Shown: piece by piece, positions 6,693 to 30,058 of the stretch
Position numbering within the stretch: position 1 is the first letter of the stretch
Layout: each line of letters begins with the position of its first letter
From: Candidatus Brocadia sp.
GTDB taxonomy: Bacteria > Planctomycetota > Brocadiia > Brocadiales > Brocadiaceae
Length of the DNA stretch: 34,794 nt
Direction of reading: 5' to 3'
NCBI GenBank assembly: GCA_021646415.1
Contig: SOEU01000029.1
Span: forward strand, 1-34,794
Made by a program: the position numbers and the translations under genes
Notes under the pieces: model-generated
What the model saw: the letters and a program-made list of their open reading frames with translations, nothing else
What the model was told of the DNA's origin: nothing
Database searches by the model: none

Positions 6693-6787
6693 TTGCACCT
6701 TTAAGATTACGAATAAAAGAGTTCCAAAAATTAATTGTGTCGGAATTTTCGCTTTATTTGTGCTGATTCTTGGTAGTGGCAGACAAA

Positions 6788-6826
6788 AAATCCCCCTTAG
6801 AAAAGGGGGCGTAGGGGGTTGTAAAA
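6788..6826 (+). repeat. GC-rich palindromic repeat, left copy flanking the DUF559 gene
   Basis: CCCCCTT at 6792-6798 pairs with AAGGGGG at 6803-6809, followed by GTAGGGGGTTGT. The reverse complement of this element matches 7197-7235 on the other side of the DUF559 gene. The gene's ATG begins about 10 bases after the repeat, which has no obvious ribosome-binding site other than its own G-run. Confidence 0.8.
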
Positions 6827-6836
6827 TAGCGCTATT

Positions 6837-7241
6837 ATGAAGATTTACTATAATCAGAAGCTAAAATTCCTCTCAAGAGAACTCAGAAAAAAAAGTACTT
6901 TATCAGAGGTCTTGCTTTGGAATAAATTGAAAGCACGAAAGATAAAAGGATATCAATTCATGCGGCAAAAGCCAATCGGTAAGTATATCGTAGATTTCTA
7001 CTGCAGTAAGTTGAAATTGGTAATTGAAATTGATGGTATCAGTCATAACGACAAATCTGAGAAAGATCGGGCAAGGCAGAAGCAATTAGAGTCGTTGGGG
7101 CTGTCTCTGTTACGGTTTTATGAATGGGATGTAAAAAAAGATATGAATGCTGTAGTGCAGGTAATCGAATCCTGGATTGAAGAATTTGAGAAAAAACACA
7201 ACCCCCTGAATCCCCCTTTGGGTAAGGGGGACTTAAAATGA
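6837..7241 (+). CDS. DUF559 domain protein (restriction-endonuclease-like fold)
   Basis: The 134-residue protein matches the DUF559 family, which has a Vsr/PD-(D/E)xK nuclease-like fold. Visible motifs are ARKIKGYQFMRQKPIGKYIVDFYC, the acidic strand KLVIEIDGISH (likely catalytic Asp/Glu) and LGLSLLRFYEWDVKKD. No biochemical function is established for most members, so a nuclease role is inference. The gene sits alone among glycan genes and lies between inverted copies of one palindromic element. The right copy encodes the last 13-14 residues (HNPLNPPLGKGDLK) and the stop codon, which overlaps the next gene's ATG (ATGA). This suggests the gene arrived as a repeat-bounded cassette. Confidence 0.8.
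   Translation: MKIYYNQKLKFLSRELRKKSTLSEVLLWNKLKARKIKGYQFMRQKPIGKYIVDFYCSKLKLVIEIDGISHNDKSEKDRARQKQLESLGLSLLRFYEWDVKKDMNAVVQVIESWIEEFEKKHNPLNPPLGKGDLK
7197..7237 (+). repeat. GC-rich palindromic repeat, right (inverted) copy, supplies the 3' end of the DUF559 gene
   Basis: TCCCCCTT (7211-7218) pairs with AAGGGGGA (7224-7231) around TGGGT. It is preceded by ACAACCCCCTGAA, the inverted counterpart of the left copy's GTAGGGGGTTGT. It is in-frame with the DUF559 gene and ends a few bases before the next start codon. Confidence 0.8.
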
Positions 7242-15456: not shown

Positions 15457-16470
15457 ATGAAAAATAACTGTCCCTTTGTTTCTGTCATCATCCCCATATT
15501 CAACGAAAAGAGGTATATCCGTCAATTATTGCACTCGTTATTGAAGCAGGATTATCCGAAAGATAGGCTTGAAATCCTTCTTATTGACGGTCGTTCGGAA
15601 GATGGCACGAGAGATGAAATCAATGAGATTATTGCCTCATCTCCGGAATTTTCTCACTTAAAAATTATTGTACTCGATAATTTCAAACGAATCGTTCCCT
15701 GTGCCTTAAATATTGGGATTAAGGACTCAAAGGGGGATTTTGTTATTCGTATGGATGCCCATTCGGCATATGCGCCTGATTATGTTAGCAAATGCGTTGA
15801 ATGGCTGGAAAAGACGAACTCTGCAAATGTGGGTGGGCCGATGGTGGCCAATGGCAAAGGCTTTGTTGGCAAGGCTATTGAGTTTGCCCACCACTGCCGG
15901 TTTGGTTTGGGTGGTGGAAGGTTCCATGATGAACAGTGGGCTGGATATGCAGACACCGTCTATCTTGGCGCCTGGCCAAAAAGAATATTTGAGGAAGTAG
16001 GTTTGTTTGACGAACGTTTTACACGAACCGAGGATATCGAACTTAATTCAAGGATTCGAAAGGCAGGTAGAAAAATTTATCTAACACCTGAAATAAAGTC
16101 ATATTACCACTGCCGGGATACTTTACGTGGATTGTGGCGGCAGAATTTTGCAAATGGGAAAGAAGTTGTTTATACAAAGATTGTTGCCCCGTATACACTA
16201 TCGTGGAGACATTTTATCCCATTGATATTTGTTGTTTCTTTGATAGTGCCGATGGTGTTTTTTCCCTTTTCATTTTTAGCGACAATTGCATTCGTCCTCG
16301 TTGCCGGTAGTTATGCCTTGGCAAATCTCTTCTTCTCCTTCCGGCTGGCCTGTAAAAACGGCTTCAGATATCTGTTTACCCTGCCAGTTGTTTTTGCTAC
16401 TCTTCATTTCAGTTACGGGCTTGGGTCGATCTGGGGATTGCTGACCTTGAAAAGATGGTTAAAAAAATAG
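15457..16470 (+). CDS. Glycosyltransferase family 2 protein (ExoA-like), intact copy
   Basis: The 337-residue protein is a GT-A fold family 2 glycosyltransferase. It has VSVIIPIFNEKRYIRQLL (8-25), LLIDGRSEDGT (41-51), the metal-binding Asp100 region RMDAHSAYAPDY, GGPMVANGKG, the catalytic-base-like TEDIEL (191-196), and a GLWRQNFANGK motif (225-235). Two or three hydrophobic segments follow, anchoring it to the membrane. It resembles succinoglycan-type ExoA enzymes. A second, frameshifted copy lies at 24379-25388. Homology continues past the stop into a CGCCAAGCCGCT repeat. This copy's reading frame is intact and is probably the functional one. Confidence 0.9.
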   Translation: MKNNCPFVSVIIPIFNEKRYIRQLLHSLLKQDYPKDRLEILLIDGRSEDGTRDEINEIIASSPEFSHLKIIVLDNFKRIVPCALNIGIKDSKGDFVIRMDAHSAYAPDYVSKCVEWLEKTNSANVGGPMVANGKGFVGKAIEFAHHCRFGLGGGRFHDEQWAGYADTVYLGAWPKRIFEEVGLFDERFTRTEDIELNSRIRKAGRKIYLTPEIKSYYHCRDTLRGLWRQNFANGKEVVYTKIVAPYTLSWRHFIPLIFVVSLIVPMVFFPFSFLATIAFVLVAGSYALANLFFSFRLACKNGFRYLFTLPVVFATLHFSYGLGSIWGLLTLKRWLKK

Positions 16471-19860: not shown

Positions 19861-20029
19861 ATATAGAAAGTGTTTTCCTTATCCTCCCGATTAATGAAAA
19901 CAGTTGAAAATATACTTAGTTACCTTGTCACAACAGAATTAAAAGGAGACAAATCACAGAAGAATACGGATGGTACAAATGCACACTCAACAGATAAATG
20001 TTCCAAGGGAAAGCAAAAGGACATACATT

Positions 20030-21859
20030 ATGTTTATTGTGGCGAGGTTTGTCCTTCTCCTCTTTGTTGCGTTTTTATCAACGACAGCGCTTGCTTACGC
20101 CAAAGATAACGAAACTGTTGCAGCGCCACAAGAATATTTTAGCGACTGTAACATAACCGTTGTTTCCACCCTAGCGGGAAATACCATACAACTTGCCAGA
20201 CAGCGGGATGTTTTACTCTTCGAGGGTTTTGATGCATCTGTTAAACCTGAAAGAGGCCCATCAAGGAATGCTTCTCAGAAGATTTCAGACTGGAGATATA
20301 TCCCTAAAGATGGCTGGGGGTTTGAAAATTTCAGAAACGCACTTACTCCTTTTGTTTTAAGGGAAAAGGATGCGCAGAATACCTGCCTGATTATTCGCGG
20401 TAAAGAAGGCGACACCGCCTTTGAGCTTGCTTCCCCAAAAATCCCTGTTGTGCCAGAGAAAGAATACACCCTGAGTTTTCGATGCAAGTTTAATAAACGT
20501 ATGGTGAGCCACTACGGACACAAAGGAAAGTATGAGACCGGTATTATCTGGTTTGACTCAAATCACAAGAAACTGAACGATATGCCCATCACCCTGCTCT
20601 GTGAAGAGGGTGATGAAAAAGACTGGTACAGAAAGGCGATTACCGTGGTTTCACCTGAAAAGGCAGCAATGGCGCTTATTCGCTTCGGTTTTGACCTTCC
20701 GAATCTTGGCCCCGAGGATTTTGTATGCCTCGATGATATTCAATTCGACTCGGCAAGTAACAGGCACGAACCCGAAGGCGAGTTTGTTTCAAGGCCGTTG
20801 TCAATCGAACCAGGCGAATTTTCTCTCACCGCAAATGCAGACATACCAGCAGGAACCTCCATTCGATTCCAGGTAAGGTTTGCCGGGGATAACGATGGTG
20901 TGCCTGGCACCTGGTCATCGTTTGTAAATTACAATCAAACAACCACCCCTCAGTCCCCTCCTTCACAAGGAGGGGATTTTGCCGTGAGCACTCAGCAGAA
21001 CGACAAAAGGGATATGAAATCAAGGCTTTCCAGTTCACTACCTTCACAAGGGAAAGGGGAAGGATTGTTGATTTCCTCCTTTGCGAGGGAAAGAGACAGT
21101 GTTATTAATTACCCCCCTTTCGTTCCCCCCTTCGTAAGGGGGGACACAGGGGGGTGTAAAATAAACTTTCCGGAAAAAGAAGTTTTTGCACAGAAAGCCT
21201 ATAGATGGCTGCAATACCGGGCTATCCTTCATACAACCAAACCCGAAACAACTCCTGCGCTCCATAGTGTGACAATTAATAACTCTGGTCGCGTCGCTAT
21301 TACAGATACTGGATGGACCGGTCACGATACGACACCGCCTGAAATTATTTGGCGAAGCCCGACAAGAACTGAGAATGCAGATATCCCGATCTCGTTCCGC
21401 CTTTGTGACAATCCTGGCGGGCTTGGCGTCAAGAGTGTAGAGGCGTATCTTGATGGAGAGAAAGTGGAATTATTACAGGATAAATCCCATGGGAACGAAT
21501 ATACTCTCAAGACCAATGGCCCACTCAAGCCCATCGACCGCAGCAGAAGTCTTTCAGCATGGCGCACTGAGAATTACCAGGATGCACTAGCGGTGGAACA
21601 TACGCCAGAAGTGATTACGGTGAGGAGCAAGAGTAAGGATGATACTTACGTGGATACTGCCTTTAAATTACCGTCACCACAGATTCCTGTTCGAGAAAAT
21701 TCGAAGTATGTGCTTACCTTTTTTGTGCAGCATACTATGGAACTCACACAATTACAACATTGGGGAGAGCTTTCAAGCGGTATACGCTGGAAGGATTTTA
21801 GGGGGAATGATGTAGGCGCTCCATACAGGATGAGTTTTGGAACCCGTGATATAAACTAG
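20030..21859 (+). CDS. N-terminal part of a broken secreted carbohydrate-binding/glycosidase-like protein
   Basis: I chose ATG 20030 because AAAAGGA lies 8 bases upstream and the frame then begins with a clear signal peptide (MFIVARFVLLLFVAFLSTTALAYA). The frame is also open from 19970, but that start lacks both. The 609-residue part holds a jellyroll-like binding domain (about 65-240), a beta-sandwich (TSIRFQVRFAGDNDG), an Ig-like segment (TTPPEIIWRSPTRTE), and most of a second jellyroll-like domain. It ends at an in-frame TAG (21857-21859). Similarity continues in the same frame, and the parallel position in the first jellyroll is Trp, so TGG probably mutated to TAG. About 75 residues (20939-21165) come from palindromic repeats inserted in frame. 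As read, the product lacks its catalytic domain. Confidence 0.7.
   Translation: MFIVARFVLLLFVAFLSTTALAYAKDNETVAAPQEYFSDCNITVVSTLAGNTIQLARQRDVLLFEGFDASVKPERGPSRNASQKISDWRYIPKDGWGFENFRNALTPFVLREKDAQNTCLIIRGKEGDTAFELASPKIPVVPEKEYTLSFRCKFNKRMVSHYGHKGKYETGIIWFDSNHKKLNDMPITLLCEEGDEKDWYRKAITVVSPEKAAMALIRFGFDLPNLGPEDFVCLDDIQFDSASNRHEPEGEFVSRPLSIEPGEFSLTANADIPAGTSIRFQVRFAGDNDGVPGTWSSFVNYNQTTTPQSPPSQGGDFAVSTQQNDKRDMKSRLSSSLPSQGKGEGLLISSFARERDSVINYPPFVPPFVRGDTGGCKINFPEKEVFAQKAYRWLQYRAILHTTKPETTPALHSVTINNSGRVAITDTGWTGHDTTPPEIIWRSPTRTENADIPISFRLCDNPGGLGVKSVEAYLDGEKVELLQDKSHGNEYTLKTNGPLKPIDRSRSLSAWRTENYQDALAVEHTPEVITVRSKSKDDTYVDTAFKLPSPQIPVRENSKYVLTFFVQHTMELTQLQHWGELSSGIRWKDFRGNDVGAPYRMSFGTRDIN
20939..21165 (+). 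repeat. Palindromic repeat cluster inserted in frame in the glycosidase-like gene
   Basis: Several CCCCTCCTTCACAAGGAGGGG-type hairpins form a block of about 225 bp that keeps the reading frame open. It encodes a low-complexity peptide (TTTPQSPPSQGGDFAVS... and PPFVPPFVRGDTGGCK) between two conserved beta-strand regions. The first 55 bases resemble the second insertion at 22138. The behaviour recalls Rickettsia palindromic elements, which also insert within genes. Confidence 0.8.
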
Positions 21860-22366
21860 CGCCGAAATGTGCATACCGTGAAATCTCCTGCCGGCGCTGC
21901 TTCAGCAGAACTCTGTTTTGGATGGGATTCACCGAATCTGAAAAGCGGGGATTTCTTTTCGATAAAAAATGTCAGCCTTGAAGGTCCGAAACCTGAGTTA
22001 ACGTATGCGCCAAATTTACACAAGATTGAAGTCAAGGCCTGTGACCTTGCCGGAAATAGCATGCAGAAAACATGGTATTTGTTTGTAAAAGAATTTCCGA
22101 TAGAAAACATCATAGGGCCGCACGGTCGCAAACAATTAACCACCCCTCAGTCCCCTCCTTCACAAGGAGGGGACTTCGTCGTGAGCGCTCAGTCGAACGA
22201 TAAAGGGGAGGTAATAAAAGATACCCTACCTCATGAAAGTATGCCACCCACCCTTAATCCCTCCCATCGTTCGACTGAGCGCTCACGACGAAGTCAAGGA
22301 GGGAAAGTTCCTCGCCCTTTGCGGGAGAGGGTCAGGGTGAGGGGTATTTTCGTGCCAATACGATAA
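21860..22366 (+). pseudogene. Middle segment of the broken glycosidase-like gene, beyond the TAG
   Basis: Read in the same frame as the upstream part, this continues as RRNVHTVKSPAGAASAELCFGWDSPNLKSGDFFSIKNVSLEG. It matches, position for position, the end of the first jellyroll in the same protein. A linker strand follows (HKIEVKACDLAGNSMQKTWYLFV), then the gene is interrupted from about 22138 by a second palindromic repeat insertion. That insertion changes the frame. There is no independent start codon with a ribosome-binding site, so this stretch is unlikely to be translated on its own. Confidence 0.75.
22138..22345. repeat. Second palindromic repeat insertion, with 30-bp perfect inverted repeat
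   Basis: It begins with the CCCCTCAGTCCCCTCC..GGAGGGG hairpin. Then come two 30-base arms that are exact reverse complements (22172-22201 and 22266-22295), separated by 64 bases. Arm content includes GAGCGCTCAGTCGAACGA, related to the GTTCGACTGGGCTCACC repeats elsewhere in the window. The insertion shifts the frame of the host gene by one step relative to the 3' part. Confidence 0.85.
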
Positions 22367-24378: not shown

Positions 24379-25388
24379 ATGTATAACAATAAACACGTTT
24401 CCGTCATCATCCCCATATTCAATGAAAAGAGATATATCCGTCAATTATTGAATTCATTATTGCAGCAGGATTATCCGAAAGACAGGCTTGAAATCCTTCT
24501 TATTGATGGGCGTTCGGAAGACGGCACGAGAGAAGAGATAAATGATGTTATTGCCTCATCTCCGGAATTTTCTCATCTTCGTATTACTGTACTCGATAAT
24601 CCCAAAAGGATCGTCCCCTGTGCCTTAAATATCGGGATTAAGGAGTCAAAAGGGGATTTTGTTATCCGCATGGATGCACACTCGGCATATGCACCTGATT
24701 ATGTTAGCAAATGCATTGAGTGGTTGGAAAAGACGGGCGCTGCAAATGTGGGTGGGCCGATGGTGGCCAATGGCAAAGGCTTTGTTGGCAAGGCTATTGA
24801 GTCTGCCCACCACTGCCGGTTTGGTTTGGGTGGTGGAAGGTTCCATGATGAACAGTGGGCTGGATATGCAGACACCGTCTATCTTGGCGCCTGGCCAAGA
24901 AAGACCTTCAAAAACGTGGGGTTGTTTGATGAACGGCTCATAAGGAATCAGGTATTGAGTTTAATGCCAGGATCAGGAAGAACGGCGGGCTGATTTATCT
25001 GACGCCGGAAATACGGTCAAATTACCACTGCCGGGATTCTATAAAAAAGTTATGGAAGCAGAATTTCGAAAACGGGAAATGGGTGGTGTATACAAAGGCA
25101 ATTGCCCCGTATACACTATCGTGGAGACATTTTATCCCATTGATATTTGTTGTCTCTTTGATAGCGCCGATGGTGTTTTTTCCCTTTTCATTCTTAGCGA
25201 CAATTGCATTCGTCCTCGGTGCCGGTAGTTATGCCTTGGCCAATCTCTTCTTTTCCTTCCGGCTGGCCTGTAAAAACGGTTTCAGATATCTGCTTACCCT
25301 GCCAGTTGTTTTTGCTACTCTTCATTTCAGTTACGGTCTTGGGTCAATCTGGGGATTGCTGACCTTGAAGAGATGGTTAAAAAAATAG
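24379..25388 (+). pseudogene. Second copy of the GT2 glycosyltransferase, frameshifted
   Basis: This copy matches the gene at 15457-16470 over its whole length. The first part reads openly to 24993. At 24952/24953 the sequence CAGGTATTGAG replaces an expected CAGGATATTGAG, a one-base deletion just at the TED/QD-I-E catalytic motif. After restoring one base, the frame continues as EFNARIRKNGGLIYLTPEIRSNYHCRDS to 25388. The C-terminal 101 residues are also open from ATG 25083. Segments 24740-24898 and about 25090-25388 are almost identical to the other copy, while the first third and the part around the deletion are more diverged. That pattern suggests patchy gene conversion. The product would lack the acidic catalytic motif and the membrane anchor. 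Confidence 0.88.
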
Positions 25389-27229: not shown

Positions 27230-27395
27230 ACCTTGTAAAAATTCTTTTTTTAGCAAGATTTTTTACCTCCCTTTATCCACTCCTTACGAAGGAGAAATTG
27301 GAAGCACTTTAATTCTTTACCTCCCCTTCATCCCCTCCTTGCTAAGGAGGGGAAAGAGGGGGTTAATTTGGTTGCGACGGTGCTGCGTTATGATA
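27230..27395 (+). repeat. Palindromic element, left copy (with internal duplication)
   Basis: It starts TTGTAAAAATTCTTTTTTTAG, contains CTCCTTACGAAGGAG and CCCCTCCTTGCTAAGGAGGGG hairpins, and ends GGTTGCGACGGTGCTGCGTT. The same edges and order occur at 29944-30058, in the same orientation. The element is specific enough to be a mobile repeat family rather than a chance hairpin. Confidence 0.82.
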
Positions 27396-29943: not shown

Positions 29944-30058
29944 CTGTGTAAAAACATCTTTTTTAGCAAAATTTTTTACCACCCCTTCACCCCCTCCTTC
30001 CGAAGGAGGGGGTGAAGGGGTGGTTGTTAGGTTGATGCGGCTGTGCTGCGCTATGTAA
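29944..30058 (+). repeat. Palindromic element, right copy, between dabA and dabB
   Basis: It begins TGTGTAAAAACATCTTTTTTA, has the CCCCCTCCTTCCGAAGGAGGGG hairpin within longer ACCCCTTCAC/GTGAAGGGGT arms, and ends GCGGCTGTGCTGCGCTATG. It matches the copy at 27230-27395. The dabA stop codon (TAG on the minus strand, 30051-30053) lies within the conserved right edge. Confidence 0.85.

Follow-up and report, generated by a model that had tools for sequence, protein, structure and literature searches.

The DNA stretch analyzed here (hereafter, the window) comprises 34,794 nt of Candidatus Brocadia sp. (assembly GCA_021646415.1, contig SOEU01000029.1) and contains, at positions 6728-7237, what is probably a small mobile element whose only gene encodes a DUF559 nuclease and whose ends are inverted repeats, each formed by a hairpin and a G-rich tail. 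DUF559 proteins are probably the autonomous partners of the dispersed repeats of the BoxC/PIT/triplex type: the nuclease would recognize and cut the repeat ends, and internally deleted copies of about 160 bp would spread. That the nuclease itself moves the repeat appears to be the best reading of the sequences compared.

The association between DUF559 genes and inverted repeats is general across many phyla. A first sample of 80 loci came from a scan of species genomes in which the query was an aligned set of six DUF559 domains from the window's genome; at the 71 loci with enough flank, the upstream flank was compared with the reverse complement of the downstream flank (score of at least 15). 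An inverted match was found at 52 of these 71 loci; among the other genes there, 14 of 594 had one, and among pairs made by mismatching DUF559 flanks, 135 of 710. Two further samples gave inverted flanks at (i) 21 of 25 DUF559 loci of Brocadia (34 loci, nine of them too short); and (ii) 20 of 22 loci of a second, phylum-wide draw (26 loci, four too short). The Vsr nucleases, used as a control, had inverted flanks at 0 of 26 loci (30 loci, four too short), and the Y1_Tnp family, which is known to be associated with repeats, at 12 of 29 (30 loci, one too short). The palindrome enrichment that an earlier note on this DNA had proposed to look for around DUF559 genes is, in consequence, strong. Direct flank similarity is also raised at DUF559 genes (35/71 vs. 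18/594), as expected where several repeat copies cluster. Upstream hairpins with a score of at least 10 are present at 63% of 75 DUF559 loci vs. 19% of 594 genes, and the oriented motif (a C-run hairpin plus a G-run tail) faces the gene on both sides at 35 of 73 DUF559 loci, one of 567 control genes and none of 29 Y1_Tnp loci.

These controls bear on two other explanations. According to the first, the repeats are an artefact of composition, GC-rich hairpins such as terminators being common between genes; even though strong downstream hairpins are equally common at control genes, the figures for the oriented two-sided motif and for the Vsr loci rule this out, and its probability is negligible. 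According to the second, the DUF559 protein is a nuclease that, like Vsr, repairs mismatches or DNA structures, protecting or trimming the hairpin repeats, and their proximity is a matter of housekeeping. Vsr is a structural neighbor of the DUF559 protein, and the DUF559 protein VsrA of Caulobacter has been proposed by its authors to be a mismatch-repair enzyme (PMC12907096). Nevertheless, a repair function is a very improbable account of the association, since none of the 26 Vsr loci has inverted flanks and a repair enzyme need neither sit between inverted copies nor match their sequence type.

Such matching is, in fact, observed, every DUF559 clade having a stem type of its own. Of 124 DUF559 proteins, the 78 with exactly one of seven repeat types were kept (44 had none and two had two types). 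The repeat types require 10 changes on the protein tree (the minimum is six) vs. a mean of 50.3 after shuffling, and none of 200 shuffles was as low; the protein tree has few columns and near copies favor clustering, so this result is strong but not independent by locus. In the window's genome alone, the repeats are of type 1 (the window locus, L001), type 7 (L002 and L003), type 2 (L004) and type 3 (L006), L and G numbers being our designations of loci and genomes. In a smaller tree, type 3 unites Brocadiaceae with Nostoc, Cyanothece and Balneola, and type 2 unites Brocadia with Flavobacteria; because these types join distant hosts, the clustering is not simply host taxonomy. Gene and repeat were also compared across 199 genomes of the phylum, with strong DUF559 matches defined as E<1e-15 and classes read by hand from tables. 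Ten or more net generic-motif copies are present in 16 of 29 genomes with a strong match vs. 5 of 170 without one and, outside the window's own order, in 8 of 21 vs. 2 of 167. In most readable strong-match genomes that lack the generic motif, DUF559 is accompanied by inverted palindromes whose stems differ in sequence.

Concerning their structure, the tail of the repeats follows the pyrimidine arm of the stem by the triplex rule (C to G and T to T). Among 186 distinct flank elements the mean score for this rule is 0.758, vs. 0.688 after reassignment of the tails among stems (standard deviation 0.006; maximum over 200 shuffles, 0.702), with stem/tail pairs such as CCCCCTT with GGGGGTT, CCCCTCT with GGGGTGT, and CCCCTCC with GGGGTGG. 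In this pattern, the DUF559 repeats have the design of the intrastrand-triplex repeats formerly named BoxC and PIT (PMC4666352). Both the window repeats and the BoxC/PIT/TM_ECO repeats present a hairpin and then a G-rich third-strand tail; a single-strand triplex was shown in vitro for TM_ECO (PMC4666352), while the Brocadia repeat is known here by sequence. Triplex motifs have been reported in more than 260 prokaryotes, with 23 copies in Escherichia coli K-12 and about 100 in the gonococcus, and the search for a mobility gene of their own gave none (Holder et al., 2015; PMC4666352). The repeats themselves are, therefore, not new but part of a published class; the present comparison contributes their link with DUF559, the pairing of stem types with proteins, and the copies that bear a gene. 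In E. coli K-12, an exact TM type-A motif lies 168 nt after the DUF559 gene ycjD, whose product was listed as a PD-(D/E)XK nuclease in 2005 (PMC1189080). In Neisseria gonorrhoeae, the NGO0050-like gene (L115), a relative of PDB 3hrl, has hairpins of the CCTCTCCCTGTGGGAGAGAG type, with G-rich tails, on its flanks. The open-access literature searched (most subscription journals and bioRxiv preprints fall outside this scope) does not link DUF559, YcjD or COG2852 to BoxC/PIT/triplex or other palindromic repeats.

In Brocadia, the element also has dispersed gene-less copies. Across 11 Brocadia genomes there are many sites at which the left end (window 6728-6830) and, after it, the right end (7189-7237) lie only a few bases apart. 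Sixteen gene-less copies, of about 150-165 bp, align end to end and have unrelated flanks; they share both ends with the DUF559-bearing copy and have its interior deleted. The bases between hairpin and tail differ among copies (CGTAG, CAAG, CGAG, CGCG). Gene-less copies were inserted in the past at sites that are empty in relatives. The site of copy G002:C1:2461.5 kb is uninterrupted in G005 and G003: in G003 the empty site reads GTAA[CAAATTAT]TG (in G005, one base in the bracket is different) and the filled site reads, on that strand, GTAA[CAAGTTAT]element[CAAATTAG]TG. Likewise, the insert at 729.8 kb is absent in G005, G001, G009, and G007, the empty site of G005 being TTTT[ATAATTTA]AGCA and the filled one TTTT[GTGATTTA]element[ATAACTTG]AGCA. 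Both empty-site targets are ATAATTTR on one strand, and 8-bp direct repeats are found at the two sites. Clean empty sites, which the earlier note had also suggested seeking, exist then for two gene-less copies sharing both ends, while at the two Brocadia loci with DUF559-bearing copies that were examined none was found at DNA level. In general terms, the gene-less copies resemble miniature inverted-repeat transposable elements (MITEs), i.e., short, internally deleted elements that have both ends in common with an autonomous copy and have clean empty sites; the difference is that the presumed autonomous copy encodes here a nuclease and no known transposase.

Gene-bearing insertions are found in cyanobacterial plasmids, where different genera were compared, in part through their proteins. 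On a Pseudanabaena plasmid, the methyltransferase gene pglX of a bacteriophage exclusion (BREX) system holds a DUF559 copy with its repeats plus two gene-less inserts of the same repeat family, all of them in frame, while the Aulosira homologue has none of these inserts. On a Synechocystis B12 plasmid, a DUF1156 methyltransferase gene, intact in Planktothrix, is split by a palindrome-bounded DUF559 element of about 504 bp; searches for near relatives of the Synechocystis B12 plasmids yielded no close relative without the DUF559 gene, only the Planktothrix homologue for one of them. All three cyanobacterial insertions (L117, L260, and L261) lie in or beside DNA methyltransferase genes (pglX, DUF1156, and pglX-like), near a DPxxGSG motif, which possibly reflects either a target preference or a sampling effect. 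The suggestion that the DUF559 family and the repeat travel together is supported by the flank enrichment, by the empty sites of end-sharing gene-less copies, and by these interrupted methyltransferase genes. Neither of the two checks proposed in the earlier note refutes its idea.

Regarding the protein, only DUF559 (PF04480, E=1.7e-33) reaches the Pfam cut-off in the window gene product, the Vsr family (PF03852) being absent from its Pfam matches. Its AlphaFold model has a mean predicted local distance difference test score (pLDDT) of 87.4, with a disordered tail at residues 125-134, which are encoded by the repeat. The best folds are (i) 3hrl, the gonococcal endonuclease-like protein NGO0050; and (ii) 3r3p, the homing endonuclease I-Bth0305I, which is also matched by profile search (E=5.5e-05); the Vsr folds 1vsr and 1cw0 are distant matches only. 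Residues E24, D53, E64, D66, H70, and D77 are invariant in 51 sequences, and the EDxHD fold with its invariant, putatively catalytic residues is present, as mapped by analogy with published work (PMC12907096). The ratio of nonsynonymous to synonymous substitution rates (dN/dS) is 0.05-0.11 among four type-1 genes, a rough range given that two of the six dS values exceed 2, and indicates purifying selection on the protein. A DUF559 protein triggers the SOS response in Caulobacter cells without ScmA (PMC12907096), which counts in favor of the proposed partnership. Elsewhere, a recombination hotspot of Legionella has been described as a transposase/DUF559 segment (PMC12308824).

This kinship brings in another explanation, namely that DUF559 is a homing endonuclease which cuts pre-existing repeats or empty alleles and whose gene is then copied in by recombination, the repeats spreading by other means. 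Apart from the closeness to I-Bth0305I, DUF559 has been assigned, in connection with inteins, to the EDxHD homing family (PMC9403480), and at two Brocadia loci (L093 in G005 and L100 in G001) a type III DNA methyltransferase contains an insert that resembles an intein and has DUF559 as its nuclease domain; the DPTC / ...HNCGSGTT junctions of this putative intein were called by eye from the open frame. The window protein has, then, the fold and the conserved acidic and histidine residues of the EDxHD/Vsr-like homing endonucleases; it differs from them in being a free-standing protein of 134 aa, located between triplex palindromes, dispersed to unrelated sites and accompanied by gene-less derivatives. 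Strict homing is weakened because copies are dispersed in unrelated flanks: homing through flank homology does not give gene-less copies in such flanks with clean empty sites. The match between repeat ends and protein clade also speaks against it, and homing is, in any case, unlikely as the explanation.

A close parallel to the proposed partnership is that between repetitive extragenic palindromic (REP) sequences and their REP-associated tyrosine transposases (RAYTs), including the so-called REPtrons and REPINs, where a small gene likewise lies between inverted hairpin repeats, short derivatives are dispersed, and the repeat family is matched to the enzyme (PMC3733652). DUF559 proteins would be to BoxC/PIT/triplex repeats what RAYT transposases are to REP repeats. 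But while RAYTs are Y1 (HUH) transposases with repeats tagged with GTAG (PMC3733652), DUF559 adopts a nuclease fold of the PD-(D/E)XK type, and the repeats around it carry a third-strand tail without any constant GTAG. Thus, of the REP/RAYT features, one is found here, namely a gene between inverted hairpin repeats which also occur in dispersed form; the Y1 transposase is not (the gene product matches DUF559 only and its nearest folds are nucleases), and neither is GTAG at one repeat end, the joining bases varying among copies. The same source, on GTAG and CGTC repeats, describes the latter as being without a dedicated transposase and nowhere mentions DUF (PMC3733652). Alternatively, DUF559 could be a hitch-hiker, that is, a nuclease gene captured between two copies of palindromes moved by RAYT/IS200-type Y1 transposases. 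Y1_Tnp genes are indeed present in 11 of 11 Brocadia genomes, with inverted flanks at the 12 of 29 loci cited above. However, this alternative is weakened because the palindromes beside Y1_Tnp genes are different (ACCCCGAAGGGGT, CAGGGGGCTTCACCCCCTG), the DUF559-type motif being found at 0 of 29 loci; the clade-wise matching of repeat and DUF559 protein is also unexpected for a passenger, and a hitch-hiking origin is quite improbable.

According to the mechanism proposed here, the G-rich tail could lie on the hairpin as a third strand and the nuclease would recognize the hairpin or triplex end of its own type. It would then cut DNA at the element and/or at the target (AT-rich, and ATAATTTR at the two sites read), after which host repair or replication would join the element in, leaving the 8-bp direct repeats, and internally deleted copies would spread as elements of about 160 bp. 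Recognition, cutting and host-completed insertion are the deduced steps, in contrast to the association, protein-repeat matching, shared ends, past insertion of gene-less copies, and selection described above, which were observed.

Several points weigh against this mechanism. First, movement by DUF559 is deduced from sequence, and cutting and transposition are not among the observations, while the Y1_Tnp transposases of all 11 Brocadia genomes could act in trans. Second, the right flank of the copies is nearly always ATAACTTG, as at both of the empty sites read; because of this constant sequence, the 8-bp repeat may in part come from the element rather than from a genuine duplication of the target. 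Third, neither of the two Brocadia loci examined (L107 and L095) yielded an empty site of a DUF559-bearing copy at the DNA level, and some copies are long established, since several species share the position of the L107 DUF559 gene. Regarding E. coli, where the ycjD region is matched in 3365 of 5426 genomes, two strains without ycjD were considered as simple empty sites and rejected, efflux genes occupying the interval; furthermore, ycjD has a triplex motif downstream only. Finally, about a quarter of the DUF559 loci of the first sample have no clear inverted flanks, strong downstream hairpins (score of at least 12) are no commoner at DUF559 loci than at other genes, and three related genomes with no strong DUF559 match (G006, G096, and G202) are still rich in motif copies.

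At the window locus (Table 1), the DUF559 gene has a UDP-GlcNAc 2-epimerase gene on one side and a glycosyltransferase gene on the other. The earlier note had located the gene between a palindrome and its inverted counterpart, which is confirmed by the Pfam match and by the two copies being inverted and 77% complementary over 22 nt, in two registers. The bounds first given to the element were too small, as it starts near 6728, some 60 nt ahead of the left hairpin. The pattern CCCCCTTNNNNAAGGGGG (up to three mismatches) occurs 15 times in the window vs. 1.62 expected, and 0 of 100 shuffles reach 15. Single-strand folding of the two copies gives z=-2.23 and z=-0.93; because of the latter value, the right copy alone is unremarkable by energy. 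The right repeat does encode the C-terminal NPLNPPLGKGDLK of the protein (NPLNPPLGKGD), as had been claimed, but it does not supply the stop codon (7239-7241) or the overlap with the next ATG (7238), both just outside the repeat: the right end of other copies is ACTTAAACGGAATAACTTG where the window has ACTTAAAATGA, which puts the stop codon outside. The remark that other DUF559 proteins end in similar peptides was correct: among 127 DUF559 loci, the palindrome begins before the stop codon in 64 and after it in 34, with none seen in 23 and six unreadable.

Table 1. Features of the DUF559 element in the window.
Feature	Position	Strand	Remarks
AT-rich left end of the element	6728..6791	+	Common to dispersed gene-less copies (TTAATTGTatAGGAATTTTC...); matches within the genus begin at 6728; 16 copies aligned
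Left repeat	6792..6822	+	Hairpin CCCCCTTAGAAAAGGGGG (6792-6809); G-rich tail CGTAGGGGGTTGT (6810-6822) toward the gene, possible third strand of a triplex
DUF559 (PF04480) PD-(D/E)XK-fold nuclease gene, 134 aa (134 codons)	6837..7241	+	Relative of the EDxHD homing endonucleases; the right repeat encodes the C-terminal tail
Right repeat, inverted copy	7198..7230	-	Tail ACAACCCCCT (7198-7207) toward the gene; hairpin CCCCCTTTGGGTAAGGGGG (7212-7230)
Remnant of the right end (ACTTAAA)	7231..7237	+	Full right end ...ACTTAAACGGAATAACTTG of other copies is shortened here

The syntenic interval of G010 (G010:C256:16144-16391, L144) has the epimerase and glycosyltransferase genes 248 bp apart and no DUF559; it was rejected as a clean empty site, as it keeps about 40 nt of the left end plus a different palindrome element. 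This interval is one intergenic site with two repeat families, a different two-hairpin element and a left-end remnant of the window's family. Other palindromes, of the same general class as the element's repeats, occur in the window at 20954-20976, 21124-21144, 22149-22175, 27331-27353, and 29979-30023, several of them inside a long open frame (19970-22366, broken near 21860) in which they encode peptides such as SPPSQGGD. The window also contains two closely similar glycosyltransferase genes (15457-16470 and 24379-25388), the second of which is split into two frames.

To our knowledge, BoxC and its relatives, which are very common bacterial repeats, have been known for decades without an owner, an origin or a mobilizing enzyme, and DUF559 is a large nuclease family for which we know of no agreed function. 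It is conceivable, with slightly less than even confidence on our part, that these elements represent a new class, in which a single homing-type nuclease of about 120 residues, with no transposase, recognizes an end made of a triplex-forming hairpin and, through cutting followed by repair in the host, places itself and its gene-less derivatives at new sites; the repeats of BoxC/PIT type in many phyla would then descend from it. BoxC/PIT/triplex motifs have been tied to genome instability, and their pairing with DUF559 would give a role to both, testable in E. coli K-12, which has ycjD and 23 motifs (PMC4666352). If it is true that the nuclease alone moves the repeat, this would be a route of transposition without a transposase, in which the ends are recognized through a DNA hairpin or triplex.
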